Part shown: positions 2,222 through 56,687 of the stretch, piece after piece
How the letters are laid out: every line of letters begins with the position of its first letter
How positions within the stretch are numbered: the stretch's first letter is position 1
Assembly (NCBI RefSeq): GCF_018531495.1
Contig: NZ_JAHDTI010000005.1
Coordinates: 310,001-374,000 of the forward strand
Source of the DNA: Nonomuraea sediminis
GTDB lineage: Bacteria; Actinomycetota; Actinomycetes; Streptosporangiales; Streptosporangiaceae
DNA: 64,000 nt
Direction: 5' to 3'
The notes under the pieces: generated by a model
The model's input: only the letters and a program-made list of their open reading frames with translations
What the model was told of the DNA's origin: nothing
Databases searched by the model: none
Position numbers and translations under genes: made by a program

Positions 2222-3225
2222 CCGACTGGCACCCGCCCGACTCCGTCCCTCCCGACGACCCCCCACCCACAACCTGGCCCTCCCCCGCCCCCACGGAAGC
2301 CACCTGGAGCACCCCGAGTGCGGCCTGGTCCACCGCACCACCGGGGAGCGCTCCCCCGCCGGGGACCTTTCCACCGCCGGGGGTGGCCCCACCGCCGGGG
2401 ACCACCCTTTCGCCAGAGACTGCCCCTCCTGGCACGGTTCCGCCTTCACTGCCTTGGACCACCGCGACACCAGGGACGGTCCCGCCTCCATCGCCGTGGA
2501 CCACCGCGACACCAGGGACGGTCCCGCCATCACCGCCGTGGACCACCGCGACACCAGGGACGGTCCCGCCTCCATCGCCGTGGACCACCGCGACACCAGG
2601 GACGGTCCCGCCATCACCGCCGTGGACCACTCCGACGCCTGGGGCGGTCCCCGCGCACGGGTGGGGCGCTGTGCCTGGTGGGCCGGGTTCCGTGCCGCCG
2701 CGGCGGGGCCGGGCGGGGCTCGTCGTGGGAGTGGTCGTGTCCGTGGCCGTGCTGCTGGTGGCGGGGCTGTCGGTGCTGATGGTCAAGGCGGTCGAGCGCG
2801 TGGGCGCCATGCCGGACCCGGCCACCTCGGCTCCGCCGTACACCCCCTCGGAGGAGCCGTCGGGCGTGTATCTCGACGACCTGACGACCGGCGACTGCGC
2901 CAACGGGCTGTACCGCGACGAGGACACGATCACCGACGTCACGGTGGTCGTGTGCACCGGCCCGCACGAAGGGGAGTTCCTGGCCCGCGTCGTCCTGCCC
3001 AACGGCAGGTGGATGGGCGAGAGCGCCTCCGAGCGCATGACGGACTCTCTGTGCGAGAGGTACGCGGGCACCCTCATCCGCAGCGGCACCACCGCCGGCG
3101 AATCCGTGACCGCGCTCAACTTCTACCCCACCAAGGAGGGCTGGCCCGACGACCGCAGCGGCCTCTGCTTCGCCGTCCACAAACGCGACGACGGCACCAA
3201 ACTCGCCGCCCCCATCCGCCGCTGA
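2218..3225 (+). CDS. Septum-formation-domain membrane protein with proline-rich repeats
   Basis: A 335-residue protein with three parts. Residues 1-165 are Pro/Thr-rich and cytoplasmic, including about five tandem 14-residue repeats (TPGTVPPxxPWTTA, residues 70-141). One membrane helix follows (about 167-190). The exterior C-terminal domain contains LTTGDCANG, VVCTGPHEGEF and a further Cys, matching the septum formation (Septum_form) family of actinobacteria. The role of the family is poorly defined; it is linked to the cell envelope. The GTG start overlaps the cytochrome b stop. A related but lipid-anchored paralogue follows 45 bases downstream. Confidence 0.7.
   Translation: MTDWHPPDSVPPDDPPPTTWPSPAPTEATWSTPSAAWSTAPPGSAPPPGTFPPPGVAPPPGTTLSPETAPPGTVPPSLPWTTATPGTVPPPSPWTTATPGTVPPSPPWTTATPGTVPPPSPWTTATPGTVPPSPPWTTPTPGAVPAHGWGAVPGGPGSVPPRRGRAGLVVGVVVSVAVLLVAGLSVLMVKAVERVGAMPDPATSAPPYTPSEEPSGVYLDDLTTGDCANGLYRDEDTITDVTVVVCTGPHEGEFLARVVLPNGRWMGESASERMTDSLCERYAGTLIRSGTTAGESVTALNFYPTKEGWPDDRSGLCFAVHKRDDGTKLAAPIRR
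2425..2640 (+). repeat. 42-bp in-frame tandem repeats
   Basis: About five copies of a 42-bp unit encode TPGTVPPxxPWTTA. Alternate copies differ (PPPSPW or PPSPPW), giving an 84-bp higher-order period. Near identity between copies indicates recent expansion. They lengthen the proline-rich linker of the membrane protein. Confidence 0.85.
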
Positions 3226-3270
3226 CCCCCCGCGACACCTTCGTGATCAAGCCCTGCCATCCTCCACACC

Positions 3271-3765
3271 ATGCGTTCGCGAAGGACCTGGGCCGTCGCC
3301 ACAGCCGTGCTGACGACCTGCCTCACCACCGCCTGCACAGCCGGTACGGCCCAGCCGCCCCCCACGATCCCGTCCACCCCACCGTCCGCGGCCCCCGTGG
3401 CTTCGGTCCCGGCGAAACCGGGCGAGGAGCGCTGGTATCCAACCGATCTACGCCCAGGCGACTGCGTGAAATCCATCGCCGGTGACCAGTTGGTGACGCT
3501 GGTGCCGTGCGCCCGTCCGCACATCGCCGAGTTCGCCGCCGTGTACGTCCTCCCGGACGGCCCCTGGCCGGGCTACAACGAAGTCCAGCGCATGGCGGAG
3601 AACGGATGCCTACCCCGCGTCCACATCAAGGAGTCGCGACACGCGACAGTGGGCGTGAGCGAAATCCTCCCCTTCGAGACCACCTGGCCGCGCTCCCGAA
3701 CCGCCTACTGCCTGGCCGTCCCAGCCGCCGGCGGCACCATGCGCGGCCACGCCCTCGCATACTGA
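3271..3765 (+). CDS. Septum-formation-like lipoprotein
   Basis: A 164-residue protein with a lipoprotein signal peptide: RSRR, a hydrophobic stretch and the lipobox TTAC at about residues 19-22. After a short Pro-rich linker it carries LRPGDCVKS, TLVPCARPHIAEF and the later Cys residues of the domain seen at the end of the preceding gene. It is therefore probably a paralogue held on the outer face of the membrane by lipid instead of a helix. Function unknown. Start is the ATG directly before the signal peptide. Confidence 0.7.
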   Translation: MRSRRTWAVATAVLTTCLTTACTAGTAQPPPTIPSTPPSAAPVASVPAKPGEERWYPTDLRPGDCVKSIAGDQLVTLVPCARPHIAEFAAVYVLPDGPWPGYNEVQRMAENGCLPRVHIKESRHATVGVSEILPFETTWPRSRTAYCLAVPAAGGTMRGHALAY

Positions 3766-3863
3766 CCACTCCGAACATCCCCCTGCAGCCTCCCGCGTCA
3801 CCGGGTGGTCTCGGCGTATCCGTGGGGTCAGGCTAGGTTCGCCATCACGGTGACCGTGAGGTG

Positions 3864-3888
3864 GACCCTCACATGGGTACCGAGGGTC
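3864..3888. promoter_or_regulatory. Orphan MerR-type operator-like inverted repeat
   Basis: GACCCTC and GAGGGTC form perfect 7-bp arms around 11 bases, in the style of MerR-family promoters, followed by GTACTT as a possible -10 element. No gene starts downstream; the sequence runs into tandem repeats. It may be a relic of a lost gene. Confidence 0.35.
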
Positions 3889-3908
3889 GGCAGCGTACTT
3901 CAGTGGAA

Positions 3909-4078
3909 ACGGGTGAGCGCAGCGAACGCCTCGGACCAGGGCGGGCTCCAGCCGGGAAGAAATCCAGGTGGGCAACGGGTGGGACCCTAAAGCACGGGTG
4001 AGCGCAGCGAACGCCTCGCAGCAGGGCGGGCCCCAACGCGGAAGAAATCCAGGCGGGCAACGGGTGGGACCCTAAAGA
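3909..4078. repeat. Two 85-bp tandem direct repeats
   Basis: Copies at 3909-3993 and 3994-4078 both start ACGGGTGAGCGCAGCGAACG and end ACCCTAAAG, with a few substitutions. The start of a third copy (GCGAACGCCT) is seen at 4081-4090. The end of each copy supplies the left arm of the hairpin that follows. Confidence 0.85.
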
Positions 4079-4110
4079 ACGCGAACGCCTTGTCTTTGGG
4101 GTCCCACCCG
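4061..4110. terminator. Bidirectional terminator hairpin
   Basis: Arms 4061-4077 and 4094-4110 pair over 17 positions (CGGGTGGGACCCTAAAG with CTTTGGGGTCCCACCCG), with one mismatch that becomes a wobble pair in one RNA. The loop is 16 bases. It lies eight bases past the glyS stop, between convergent genes. Confidence 0.7.
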
Positions 4111-4117
4111 GGGTGGG

Positions 4118-5503
<1,386 letters not shown>

Positions 5504-52230: not shown

Positions 52231-53223
52231 ATGCGCTTGCCTGAAGGCATGCGGATCCACCCCATCGACTTCGACAGCCCGGCCGACCTCATGGCCGGGC
52301 TGTTCGACGCCTTCACCGAGGCACACGCCGAGATCCCCGGCCCGCCGGAGACCGAGCAGCACCTGACCTACGCGCTCAGGAACCCCGAGCCCGGCGCCCG
52401 CCTGGAGGGATACGCGTGGGTCGACGGAGGTCGCGTGGTGGCCGCCTACGCGCAGTCCTTCGTCCAGCGCGACAACCCACATTTGACCTGGCTTTACCCG
52501 TTCTTCGTGCGGCCCGACCGGCGGCGCGAGGGGCTGGGCACGCTGATGCTCGACCACGTCAAGGAACGGGCTCGCGCCGACGGGCGGACCATGGTGCTCA
52601 CCGAGGCGCCCGTCACCGGCACCGGTTCGGCCTTCGGGCACGCCCGCGACTTCAAGGTCGCCGTCGTGGAGGCGCGCCGCGTGCTCGACCTGGGCAGGGC
52701 CGACTGGGAAGAGCTGCAGCGGCTGATGCCCGAGGCCGACAGCTACCGGATCGAGCTGTCGGAGGGGCCCGCCGGTCCCGAGCTGCTCGAGGACCTGGCC
52801 GCGCTGATGTACGGCATGAACGACGCCCCGCACGCCGAGGGTATCGAGGCCTCCACGTTCGACGCCGACCTGCTGCGCGAGCGGGAGGAGTCCATCGTGC
52901 CCCGCGGGAGCCACTGCTACACGGCCGTCGCCCGGCGGATCTCCGACGGCGCCCCGGCCGGCTACACGCGCATCCACGTCGACACCGACCGGAGCATCGG
53001 CTGGGGCAAGCAGGCCGACACCACCGTGCTGCGCGACCACCGCGGCCACCGGCTGGGCCTGATGCTCAAGCTGGCCAACCTGTTCCACTTCCGCGACCGG
53101 GAGCCCGCGGCCGAGCGCATCATCACCTGGAACGCCACCTCCAACGCACACATGCTGGCGATCAACGAGGCGATGGGCTTCGAGCTGCTGGACGAATGGA
53201 ACGAATGGCAGCTGACGATCTAA
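52231..53223 (+). CDS. Double GNAT-domain acetyltransferase
   Basis: A 330-residue protein with two acetyltransferase-type domains. The first (to about residue 160) contains FFVRPDRRREGLGTLML with the acetyl-CoA loop; the second contains TVLRDHRGHRLGLMLKLANL and TSNAHMLAINEAMGFELLDEW. Substrate unknown. ATG 52231 follows GGGGAA. It precedes the kinase gene by 11 bases, so they may share a transcript. Confidence 0.85.
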   Translation: MRLPEGMRIHPIDFDSPADLMAGLFDAFTEAHAEIPGPPETEQHLTYALRNPEPGARLEGYAWVDGGRVVAAYAQSFVQRDNPHLTWLYPFFVRPDRRREGLGTLMLDHVKERARADGRTMVLTEAPVTGTGSAFGHARDFKVAVVEARRVLDLGRADWEELQRLMPEADSYRIELSEGPAGPELLEDLAALMYGMNDAPHAEGIEASTFDADLLREREESIVPRGSHCYTAVARRISDGAPAGYTRIHVDTDRSIGWGKQADTTVLRDHRGHRLGLMLKLANLFHFRDREPAAERIITWNATSNAHMLAINEAMGFELLDEWNEWQLTI

Positions 53224-53234
53224 CCTGATCACCT

Positions 53235-55289
53235 ATGACCCCCGAAGCGTTACGGGACACGGATCCGCGGCAGGTCGGCCCGTACACGCTGCTCGGGCGG
53301 CTCGGCCAGGGCGGCATGGGCATCGTCTACCTGGGCAGGGCGGCCGACGGCACCAAGGTGGCCGTGAAGCTGATCCACGCCCGGATGGACGCCGACCCGG
53401 GCTTCCGGCGCCGTTTCGCCAGGGAGGTGGCGGCCGCCCGGCGGGTGGCCCGCTTCTGCACCGCGCCCGTGCTCGACGCCGACGTGCGGGGCGACCCGCC
53501 CTACCTGGTGACCGAGTTCGTCGAGGGTCCAAGCCTGGACCAGGCCGTCTCGGCGTCGGGCCCGCTGCGCGGCTCGGCGCTCGACGGCCTGGCGGCGGCC
53601 ACGGCCACCGCGCTGCGGGCCATCCACGGCGCGGGCGTGGTCCACCGCGACCTCAAGCCGTCCAACGTGCTGCTGTCGCAGGTGGGCCCGAAGGTCATCG
53701 ACTTCGGCATCGCCCACGTGGAGGGCGGCGAGCTCAGCAGCGCGATCGTGGGCACGCCCGCCTACATGTCGCCCGAGCAGGTCAGCGGCGGCCCGATCGG
53801 CCCCGCCTCGGACATCTTCTCCTGGGGCTGCGTGCTGGCCTTCGCTGCCGGCGGCCACTCCCCCTTCGAGGGCGGCTCGGTGCCCGACATCCTCATGCGG
53901 ATCGTCACCGCGGAGCCGGACCTGTCCGGCCTCGCCCCGCCGCTGCGCGACCTGGCCGCCGCCGCGCTGGCCAAGGACGCGGCCGCCCGGCCCACGGCCG
54001 ACGACCTGCTCACCTCGCTGAGCGCCGCGGGCACACCGCTCCCCTACTCCGGAACGGCAAGCCCTCCCGAACCCCCGACCGCGACCAGCCCTCAGCAGGC
54101 CGCCGACGGGCCGCTCGAGCCCCCCGGCGGCCGCACCGTCCCACCACCCGCGAACAGGCGGCTCCTGATCGGAGCGGCGGCAGCCGTACTGGCTGTCGCG
54201 GCCGCCGCGACCGCCGTGGCCCTCACCAGGGACGGCGTCACGGCGGCGAAGGTGAAGAGCACAGCCACGACCACGACCGAGCCCGCCACGGCGCGGGCGG
54301 GCGGCAACCCGCTGCGGGCCGAGCAGGTGACGCTGTTCGCGCCGCCCGAGCCGGGCGCCAGCTGGCAGGCGGGCAGGTGGGACAAGGACCGCCCGCAGGA
54401 CGCCGCGCTCATGCGGAAGGTGGCGGCCGTGCCGTACGGGATCTGGCTCACCGACCCGGACGTGCGGGCGAAGGTGGCCGCGACGATCGAGCAGGCCGCG
54501 GGCCGGGTCCCGGTGTTCGTGGCCGACCACCTGCCGGGCGCCGACTGCCTGCCGCGCGGCGCGAAGGACCGGGCCGGGTACGAGCAGTGGATCGAGGCCC
54601 TGGGCCGCCAGATCGGCGACGCCAAGGCCGTGGTGATCCTCGAGCCGGACAGCCTGGCCAAGGTTCCCGGCACCAAGGACTGCACGATGCCGGGCACCGA
54701 GCAGGAACGCCTCCAGACGCTCGCCAAGGCCGTCGACATGCTCAAGCGCCACCCCAACACGGCCGTCTACCTCGACGCCGCCGTCAAGGACTGGCCCGAC
54801 GTGCCGACCATGACCAGGCGCCTGCTCGGCGCGGGCATCGCCAGGGCGGACGGCTTCTCCCTCAACGTCAACGGTTTCAACAGGACCGACGCGCTGGTCG
54901 CGCACGGCAGGCAGCTGGCCACCTGCCTCGCCCTGGCCAACCAGACCTGCACGGGTACCGTCGACCCCGGCAGGCTCCCGCACTTCGTCGTCGACACCTC
55001 CCGCAACGGCCAGGGCGGCTGGAAACCGCCGTCGACGTACACCGACCCGCAGACCTGGTGCAACCCGCCGGGCCGCGGCATCGGCGCGCCCCCCACCACG
55101 AAGACCGGCGACGAACTGGTCGACGCCTACCTGTGGATCAACCGGGCGGGCACCTCCAACGGCCACTGCAGGCGCGGCACCACCGGCGACAAGGACCCCG
55201 AACGCGGGGTCGTCGCGCCGCCCGCGGGCACCTGGTGGGGCGATCTCGCGCTGGAGCGGGCGAAGCTGGCGGACCCGCCGTTGCGCTGA
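53235..55289 (+). CDS. Transmembrane Ser/Thr kinase fused to GH6 cellulase-like domain
   Basis: A 684-residue fusion. Residues 17-270 are a Hanks-type kinase: GQGGMGIVYLG, VAVKLIH, VVHRDLKPSNVLL, IDFGIAHV and GTPAYMSPEQ. A Pro-rich linker and one helix (about 308-330) follow. Residues 357-684, outside the cell, match glycosyl hydrolase family 6: FVADHLPGADC, VVILEPDSLAKV with the proton-donor Asp, AVYLDAAVKDW, LNVNGFN, FVVDTSRNGQGGW, WCNPPGRGIG and DAYLWINRAGTSNG. Key acidic residues appear kept. I infer a receptor kinase that binds or cuts a beta-glucan outside and signals inside. Confidence 0.9.
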   Translation: MTPEALRDTDPRQVGPYTLLGRLGQGGMGIVYLGRAADGTKVAVKLIHARMDADPGFRRRFAREVAAARRVARFCTAPVLDADVRGDPPYLVTEFVEGPSLDQAVSASGPLRGSALDGLAAATATALRAIHGAGVVHRDLKPSNVLLSQVGPKVIDFGIAHVEGGELSSAIVGTPAYMSPEQVSGGPIGPASDIFSWGCVLAFAAGGHSPFEGGSVPDILMRIVTAEPDLSGLAPPLRDLAAAALAKDAAARPTADDLLTSLSAAGTPLPYSGTASPPEPPTATSPQQAADGPLEPPGGRTVPPPANRRLLIGAAAAVLAVAAAATAVALTRDGVTAAKVKSTATTTTEPATARAGGNPLRAEQVTLFAPPEPGASWQAGRWDKDRPQDAALMRKVAAVPYGIWLTDPDVRAKVAATIEQAAGRVPVFVADHLPGADCLPRGAKDRAGYEQWIEALGRQIGDAKAVVILEPDSLAKVPGTKDCTMPGTEQERLQTLAKAVDMLKRHPNTAVYLDAAVKDWPDVPTMTRRLLGAGIARADGFSLNVNGFNRTDALVAHGRQLATCLALANQTCTGTVDPGRLPHFVVDTSRNGQGGWKPPSTYTDPQTWCNPPGRGIGAPPTTKTGDELVDAYLWINRAGTSNGHCRRGTTGDKDPERGVVAPPAGTWWGDLALERAKLADPPLR

Positions 55290-55385: not shown

Positions 55386-56687
55386 GTGAGCAAACCCCGT
55401 ACGCCGTGGAAGGCGGTGATCGGCGGCTCCATCGGCAACCTGGTCGAGTGGTACGACTGGTTCGTCTACACCAGCTTCGCCGTTTACTTCGCCGCCGCGT
55501 TCTTCCCGCAGGGCGACGCGACGGCGCAGCTGCTCAACACCGCGGCCATCTTCGCTGTGGGCTTCTTCATGCGCCCGGTGGGCGGCTGGCTGCTCGGCCG
55601 CTTCGCCGACAGGAAGGGCCGCAAGGCGGCGCTGACGCTGACGGTGACGCTGATGTCGGGCAGCGCGCTGCTCATCGCGATCGCGCCGACGTACAAGACG
55701 GCGGGCGCCTTCGGCGCGCTCGTCCTGGTGGTGGCCCGCCTGCTGCAGGGCCTGTCGGTCGGCGGCGAGTACGCGGCCAGCGCCACCTACCTCACCGAGG
55801 CCACGCCGCAGGGCAAGCGCGGCTTCGCCTCGAGCTTCCAGTACGTGTCGATGACCGCGGGCCAGCTCGTCGGCCTCGGCCTGCAGATCATCCTGCAGAA
55901 CACGATGTCGAAGGAGGCGCTCAACTCCTACGGCTGGCGCATCCCGTTCATCGTCGGCGCGCTCGCCGCTGCGGTCGTGTTCTACCTGCGGCGCAGCCTG
56001 CTGGAGACCGAGGCGCACGACGAGGAGGCCAAGCACCACCAGGAGCGCGGCACGATCAAGCAGCTGTGGGCGCACAGGAAGGAGGCCCTGCTGGTCATCG
56101 CGCTGACGATGGGCGGCACGGTCGCCTACTACACCTACACCACCTACCTGACCAAGTACCTGGTGATCACGGCGCACCTGGAGAAGGAGACGGCAGCGCT
56201 GGTCAGCTTCTGCGCGCTGTTCATCTTCGCGCTGCTGCAGCCGGTGGCGGGCGCGCTGTCGGACCGGATCGGGCGCAGGCCACTGCTGATCACCTTCGGC
56301 ATCGGGTCGATGCTCGGCACGGTGCCACTGATGACCGCGCTGGGCAGTGCCAGCTCATTCAGGGGCGCGCTGGTCCTGTCGCTGATCGCGCTGGTCATCG
56401 TCACCGGCTACACCTCGATCAACGCGGTGGTCAAGGCCGAGCTGTTCCCCACCCACGTGCGGGCGCTCGGGGTGGCGCTGCCGTACGCGATCGCCAACGC
56501 CCTGTTCGGCGGTACGGCCGAGTACGTGGCCCTGTGGTTCAAGAGCATGAAGATGGAGTCCGGCTTCTTCTGGTACGTCTCGGCGCTCGCCGCGATCTCG
56601 CTGGTGGTCTACCTGACCATGCGCGAGACCCGCGACGCCGCGCTGACCAGGTCCGAGCGGGAGGAATCGGTCCCGGTCTCCGCCTAA
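55386..56687 (+). CDS. MHS-family MFS transporter (dicarboxylate/oxo-acid type)
   Basis: A 433-residue 12-helix transporter of the metabolite:H+ symporter family: WKAVIGGSIGNLVEWYDWFVY, GRFADRKGRKAAL, LQGLSVGGEYAASATYLTE and DRIGRRPLL. The match is to 2-oxoglutarate or citrate/proline symporters. AGGAGGT precedes GTG 55386. The two-component genes follow after ten bases and probably control it. Confidence 0.9.
   Translation: MSKPRTPWKAVIGGSIGNLVEWYDWFVYTSFAVYFAAAFFPQGDATAQLLNTAAIFAVGFFMRPVGGWLLGRFADRKGRKAALTLTVTLMSGSALLIAIAPTYKTAGAFGALVLVVARLLQGLSVGGEYAASATYLTEATPQGKRGFASSFQYVSMTAGQLVGLGLQIILQNTMSKEALNSYGWRIPFIVGALAAAVVFYLRRSLLETEAHDEEAKHHQERGTIKQLWAHRKEALLVIALTMGGTVAYYTYTTYLTKYLVITAHLEKETAALVSFCALFIFALLQPVAGALSDRIGRRPLLITFGIGSMLGTVPLMTALGSASSFRGALVLSLIALVIVTGYTSINAVVKAELFPTHVRALGVALPYAIANALFGGTAEYVALWFKSMKMESGFFWYVSALAAISLVVYLTMRETRDAALTRSEREESVPVSA

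Follow-up and report, generated by a model that had tools for sequence, protein, structure and literature searches.

The window (the whole stretch of 64,000 nucleotides of Nonomuraea sediminis DNA that was analysed) carries a gene whose one reading frame joins a Hanks-type kinase domain, a membrane helix and a domain of glycoside hydrolase family 6 (GH6). The frame starts with ATG and has no internal stop, and the coordinates of its parts and of the two flanking genes are summarized in Table 1. The Pfam search for PF00069 and PF01341 that the preliminary description had proposed found both domains far above the curated cut-offs (for PF01341, 175.6 bits against 27), and a 19-residue hydropathy scan gave a single hydrophobic stretch (peak 2.39, with no other segment above 1.6), so that the architecture given there was borne out. 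The glycine loop (GQGGMG, residues 24-29), the lysine (VAVK, 42-45) and the HRD (HRDLKPSN, 137-144), DFG (156-158) and APE-type (GTPAYMSPE) motifs are all present, in agreement with the earlier view that the kinase is complete, and on these motifs the domain would be classed as a Hanks-type Ser/Thr kinase.

Table 1. Genes, domains and selected residues at the kinase-GH6 locus (positions in the window; residue places in T. fusca Cel6A numbering)
Feature	Position	Strand	Basis
GNAT acetyltransferase, just upstream	52231..53223 (start by eye)	+	Pfam on 52291-53220
Kinase / membrane helix / putative pseudo-GH6 protein, whole gene, 684 aa	53235..55289	+	ORF
Hanks-type kinase domain, residues 17-260	53283..54014	+	Pfam PF00069, E 2.4e-39
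Pro-rich variable linker, residues 261-307	54015..54155	+	mean identity to relatives 0.25, lowest of the protein
Single predicted membrane helix, residues about 308-330	54156..54224	+	hydropathy scan
GH6 domain (Pfam), residues 386-649	54390..55181	+	PF01341, E 2.8e-51; model GH6 fold reaches residue 684
D431, Y73 place, changed	54525..54527	+	alignment and mapping
D437, D79 place, kept	54543..54545	+	alignment and mapping
D472 of EPDSL, catalytic acid D117 place, kept	54648..54650	+	codon GAC; alignment and mapping
W608, W231 place, kept	55056..55058	+	alignment and mapping; W231 in 62/62 fused
N636, T640, N642, K259, E263 and D265 places, all changed	55140..55160	+	alignment and mapping
MFS transporter, downstream	55386..56687	+	Pfam

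The linker is followed by the only predicted helix, and from this helix together with the conserved cysteines the kinase would be cytoplasmic and the GH6 domain extracellular. GC at the third codon position was 0.93-1.00 in the six 100-codon blocks printed; this evenness means that a compositional sign of a join is absent. A 683-aa ORF on the opposite strand is, in our judgement, a common product of high-GC genes, and repeats were unremarkable. No PASTA family was detected in the window protein by the Pfam scan (E<=0.001). Among NCBIfam models, PknB_PASTA_kin reached 173 bits against a cut-off of 450 and the AfsK equivalog 256.5 bits against 1300, and none of the 42 aligned members gave an NCBIfam model for the GH6 ectodomain.

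The GNAT gene lies directly upstream of the kinase gene in 18 of the 24 Nonomuraea clade-A loci, with gaps of 14-64 nt by our own ORF calls; in the other loci it was detected by tblastn (L079), was unseen (two cut loci) or was not beside the kinase (L061, L063 and L068). The MFS gene is likewise directly downstream in 18 of the 24, and the usual clade-A order is LeuA, DDAH, a small protein, GNAT, kinase-GH6, MFS, response regulator and histidine kinase. The leuA and GNAT genes are also upstream in Microtetraspora (L099 and L117). The GNAT gene thus accompanies the kinase gene in both genera, and its identity (49-58%, versus 82-94% for leuA and MFS) indicates a faster divergence. The conserved order suggests descent in place and does not name a pathway, and we regard GNAT and MFS as context, with no partnership implied. 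No conserved carbohydrate gene was present next to the kinase in the loci examined, and an operon with carbohydrate genes, which we had considered, was not found in them. CslA and GlxA are the actinobacterial surface-glucan machinery. A search with PF09118, made for a link to this machinery, gave no match in the N. sediminis genome and equally none in 14 control genomes, so that the negative carries no weight.

The fold of the ectodomain (residues 340-684) was predicted with AlphaFold2 from an alignment of 42 ectodomains, with the window sequence first and 41 of the 76 named loci (see below) picked for spread. The model had a mean pLDDT of 92.9 and a pTM of 0.90. Its top Foldseek match was M. 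tuberculosis Cel6 (1up0, E 5.2e-26), with which VIA-align gave Z 36.9 and an rmsd of 2.1 over 284 residues; Z was up to 34.5 with T. fusca Cel6A. All of the 50 matches listed by each program could be classed, some of them from the title, as GH6 proteins or as epitope scaffolds derived from a GH6 protein. The structural check against Cel6 proposed earlier therefore agreed with the assignment, and the C-terminal domain, which might have failed to match GH6, belongs to it by both sequence family (PF01341) and predicted fold.

Relatives were collected by a scan of named genomes, in which the window sequence as a single query found none and the ectodomain alignment as query found 334, the best 80 of which represent 76 loci. 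Within these best 80, the loci are from Nonomuraea, Planobispora, Planomonospora, Microbispora, Sphaerimonospora, Microtetraspora, Planotetraspora, Sphaerisporangium and Rhizohabitans, plus Actinomadura and Streptomyces. A kinase motif is in frame with GH6 in 58 of the 76 loci, and all five kinase motifs are intact in each of the 58. The other 18 comprise two loci cut by a contig end (L059 and L078), one with a frameshift (L100) and 15 free GH6 genes. The window gene, the 58 in-frame fusions, L059, L078 and L100 make up a set of 62 fused ectodomains, all of which, as drawn from the best 80 of 334 relatives, are from Streptosporangiaceae. Single loci depart from the common architecture. In L100 (Microbispora sp. 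H13382, about 2586-4696) kinase and GH6 are in different frames, by a frameshift that may be real or due to sequencing. L068 (Nonomuraea sp. MG754425) has a 560-aa frame with no clear membrane helix between kinase and GH6, by deletion or assembly fault. A helix scan left three of the 58 in-frame proteins without a clear helix; on reading, L123 has one and L068 seemingly none. Some genomes have two or more copies, and in L098, L105 and L106 a second GH6-fused kinase lies in tandem or nearby, suggesting local family expansion.

In broader samples, the ectodomain alignment matched 37 of the 54 genomes of the genus (E<=1e-30) and 71 of the 298 genomes of the family sample (E<=1e-60); by bit score, a division of our own made on the ectodomain match, 57 of the 71 would be fused-type (12 of 68 genera) and 14 free-type (two genera). 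In the class sample (394 genomes), matches above 300 bits were only from Streptosporangiaceae among the score-ordered matches listed. A motif check covered 26 of the 30 class-sample loci (L135, L136, L142 and L144 escaped the motif pattern): eight are fused and 18, from other lineages, have no kinase motif, with at least three of these 18 frames extending past the stretch examined. EPD is kept in all 18. One record of the plasmid collection, from Nonomuraea gerenzanensis and bare of feature annotation, has a full-length ortholog with EPG replacing EPD. The N. sediminis genome itself (a 12.1-Mb assembly in 43 contigs) has two PF01341 places, the window gene and L002, a GH6 protein of signal-peptide type (by eye) with six of the eight active-site residues described below (N at 159 and D at 263). 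PF00069 matches the same genome at 78 places (E<=1e-20), and several of the kinases there have very long, extracellular-looking C-terminal parts.

To compare the active sites, we aligned the 62 fused domains with the 15 free GH6 domains (the unfused members of the same best 80 of 334 relatives), T. fusca Cel6A, M. tuberculosis Cel6 and L002, and scored eight residues in T. fusca Cel6A numbering (Y73, R78, D79, D117, H159, K259, E263 and D265). According to the portions of PMC6091422 on which we draw, D175 of the T. reesei enzyme is the base, acting through a water wire, and D221 the acid; K395, E399 and D401 make contact with the sugars at -1 and -2; Y169 is regarded as vital to the distortion of the -1 ring; and the substrate interacts with W135, W269 and W367. 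The transfer of these residues to T. fusca numbering is our own, except for D175/D79. The window protein keeps two of the eight residues, D79 and D117, and has D431, A436, V517, N636, T640 and N642 at Y73, R78, H159, K259, E263 and D265. The preliminary description had stated that EPDSL and other motifs are kept; this holds for D472 of EPDSL, D437, D514, three tryptophans (W404, W520 and W608) and the four GH6 cysteines, but not for these six residues, and the window copy does not have the complete active site of a GH6 enzyme.

The erosion extends over the fused set. Among the 62 sequences, D79 is retained in 40, R78 in 25, D265 in nine, Y73 and E263 in four each, H159 in one and K259 in none; the catalytic acid D117 is gone in 60, the exceptions being the window and L093. 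No fused sequence keeps more than three of the eight residues. D79 and D117 occur together only in the window and D117 and D265 together only in L093, which is without the D79 aspartate. In the free set, 14 of the 15 domains have all eight residues and one has six. At these eight sites, entropy reaches 2.18 bits in the fused domains, whose domain mean is 1.34, and 0.09 in the free domains, whose mean is 0.73; that is, the former active site of the fused genes is more variable than the rest of the domain. Because T. reesei D175A has 2-3% of the activity left (PMC6091422, in the portion used here), loss of a single residue is no proof of inactivity, and the argument for a dead enzyme is based on the many losses and the lack of constraint at these sites. 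Elsewhere in the domain, D156 and W231 are kept in all 62 fused sequences, as are the four GH6 cysteines, and W162 is W in 53 and Tyr in nine. W41, the -2 platform, is still W in 30 sequences but R in 24, N in seven and D in one, and its loss in 32 of 62 weakens the reading of the domain as glucan-binding. An extra cysteine pair (C564 and C572) is conserved in the fused and free sets alike.

At the position of D472, the 58 in-frame relatives have the codons AAC (23), GGC (12), AGC (10) and TCC (seven), and TCG, GCG, CAG, GAG, GAC and AAG once each. The GAC of the window is one base from Asn AAC and Gly GGC, the codons of 35 of the 58 relatives, and we therefore read its EPDSL as more probably due to drift or late reversion than to catalysis having been maintained.

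In a tree of the ectodomains built without eleven active-site and cleft columns, a single branch (SH-aLRT 99) separates the 62 fused ectodomains from all other rows, and their neighbours are secreted GH6 proteins of Actinomadura and Streptomyces, with signal-peptide-like starts by eye. The tree program gave a long-branch warning for the outgroup rows (T. fusca, M. tuberculosis and L002) and for L082, L128 and L132. Three changes are needed at D117 on this tree, a number that fits one loss and two regains, though several losses may also have occurred. In the kinase tree, 59 fused kinase domains are inside a group of 65 rows (support 99), the remaining six being three more GH6-fused copies, the frameshifted L100, and L220 (from the N. 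sediminis genome) and L029 (from a relative), which are kinases with a different ectodomain. Since L220 and L029 are inside the supported group, the kinase tree alone does not show a single fusion. L220 (C36:325999-329000, 235-1785) has a possibly jelly-roll-like ectodomain, for which the one match was a weak one to 3keto-disac_hyd (E 0.038, below the cut-off), and its placement hints at ectodomain swapping.

Kinase and GH6 distances were correlated (r 0.84, 1653 pairs), with a median GH6/kinase ratio of 1.35. The kinase had a dN/dS of 0.09-0.38 in 12 close pairs, against 0.15-0.90 in GH6 and 0.15-1.50 in the linker. The GH6 value was below 1 in all 12, so the ectodomain is constrained, though less than the kinase; the two highest GH6 values (0.90 and 0.66) rest on low dS (0.11 and 0.17).

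From these results we consider it fairly probable that the window gene encodes a transmembrane Hanks-type receptor kinase with an exapted, catalytically degenerate GH6 ectodomain, probably one that binds beta-1,4-glucan or cello-oligosaccharide. The GH6 fold has been retained and the cutting chemistry probably lost. The ligand is probably a glycan, and the ancestry of the domain and its retained stacking residues point to beta-1,4-glucan or cello-oligosaccharide as the most likely one. A wider scenario for the fused family we put forward tentatively, at a little below an even chance: a former secreted cellulase, fused to a kinase long ago in Streptosporangiaceae, would now serve in receptor kinases that read foreign or own-surface beta-1,4-glucan through a dead site, with ectodomains diverging faster than the kinases. 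The fusion itself, with a later loss of catalysis and retention of the domain as a receptor ectodomain, belongs to our preferred reading. Ancestry and stacking residues suggest that a ligand, either a cellulose-derived sugar from outside or a surface glucan made by the cell itself, may enter the GH6 cleft and stay uncut. By analogy with receptor kinases in general, its binding would shift the arrangement of the ectodomain or receptor, and the rearranged receptor would switch the intracellular kinase.

A dead enzyme might instead have taken another ligand, such as a cell-wall fragment, an antibiotic or a peptide, or have become a protein-binding or dimerisation module. We regard this as unlikely on balance but as a serious alternative, for the -1 site is altered in all fused copies, W41 has become R, N or D in about half of them, the ectodomain outpaces the kinase in divergence, dN/dS reaches its highest value in one pair (of low dS), and glycan genes are absent nearby. 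The invariance of W231 and D156 and the restriction of W162 to W or Y are what would be expected if sugar stacking matters, and they argue against it, although these residues could also serve the fold. The preliminary description had seen a catalytic-type cellulase as the sensor, coupling recognition or cleavage of beta-glucan directly to phosphorylation. Recognition is still plausible; in an active receptor-cellulase, cleavage or release of the product would be the signal. D437 and D472, at the places of the base and acid proposed for GH6, are both in place in the window copy, which may hold residual activity on that account. An active receptor-cellulase is nevertheless improbable even for this copy, given its six further changes; the acid is absent in 60 of the 62 fused sequences, and the sole other copy with D117, L093, is without the D79 aspartate. 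The claim of a catalytic sensor is not supported, in view of the active-site losses across the fused family.

That a frameshift or faulty assembly merged two genes, the artefact against which the preliminary description had warned, can be given practically no weight. The assembly is rated at 7.4% contamination and odd single loci exist (the frameshifted L100 and the short L068), but the one-frame architecture recurs in 58 named loci among the best 80 of 334 relatives, the fused ectodomains fall on a single tree branch, the codon composition is even and the gene order is conserved; we consider such a join ruled out.

For most bacterial receptor kinases of the Hanks type no ligand is known, and the ancestry of this ectodomain provides a short list of candidates. 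The fused domains and their free sisters allow a before-and-after study of an enzyme turning into a receptor, and a fold retained over many genera with its active site eroded would illustrate the birth of a bacterial pseudoenzyme. If the receptor senses cellulose, it would link the development of Nonomuraea, or its production of antibiotics, to signals from plant biomass or cell-surface glucan.

We found no GH6 receptor kinase, nor any bacterial receptor kinase with a glycosidase fold, in the open-access papers searched, in line with the earlier remark that its author was aware of no characterised example; the one paper among them combining kinase, GH6 and Nonomuraea deals with CBM13. The kinase half resembles AfsK/PknB-type kinases, with partial model matches and PknB among the best solved structures, but their scores fall well short of the equivalog cut-offs and the window protein is without PASTA or another known sensor (Pfam). 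The nearest unfused relatives, the secreted Actinomadura and Streptomyces GH6 proteins (a subset of L101-L132), share its C-terminal extension and cysteines; they differ in a signal-peptide-like start (by eye), the lack of a kinase and, in 14 of the 15, a full active site. An enzyme-derived extracellular sensor is also found in BlaR1/MecR1, which, as proposed for the window protein, took its sensor from an enzyme and unlike it has a beta-lactamase fold and a protease output. In plants, CHRK1 reportedly lacks the catalytic glutamate. Receptor-like kinases of the plant GH18 type, CHRK1 among them, have a chitinase-related extracellular domain (PMC5485988, PMC4707873), termed predicted-enzymatic in the section of PMC5485988 used here; they are similar to the window protein in joining a receptor kinase to a glycosidase-related ectodomain, and different in being GH18 and from plants. 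RsgI6 of Clostridium thermocellum, as described in the passages of PMC4711584 that we cite, is likewise a membrane regulator with an extracellular module of a glycoside hydrolase family; this module has very low activity and binds xylan and cellulose. It belongs to GH10, with an anti-sigma output and in Firmicutes, whereas the window protein combines GH6 with a kinase. The sensor with a glycosidase fold is thus a known concept, of which the GH6 and bacterial receptor-kinase versions were those missing from the open-access papers searched, and the window protein, which by layout and residues is a membrane regulator whose ectodomain has a glycosidase fold and an apparently lost active site, would join these systems as a pseudo-glycosidase receptor.
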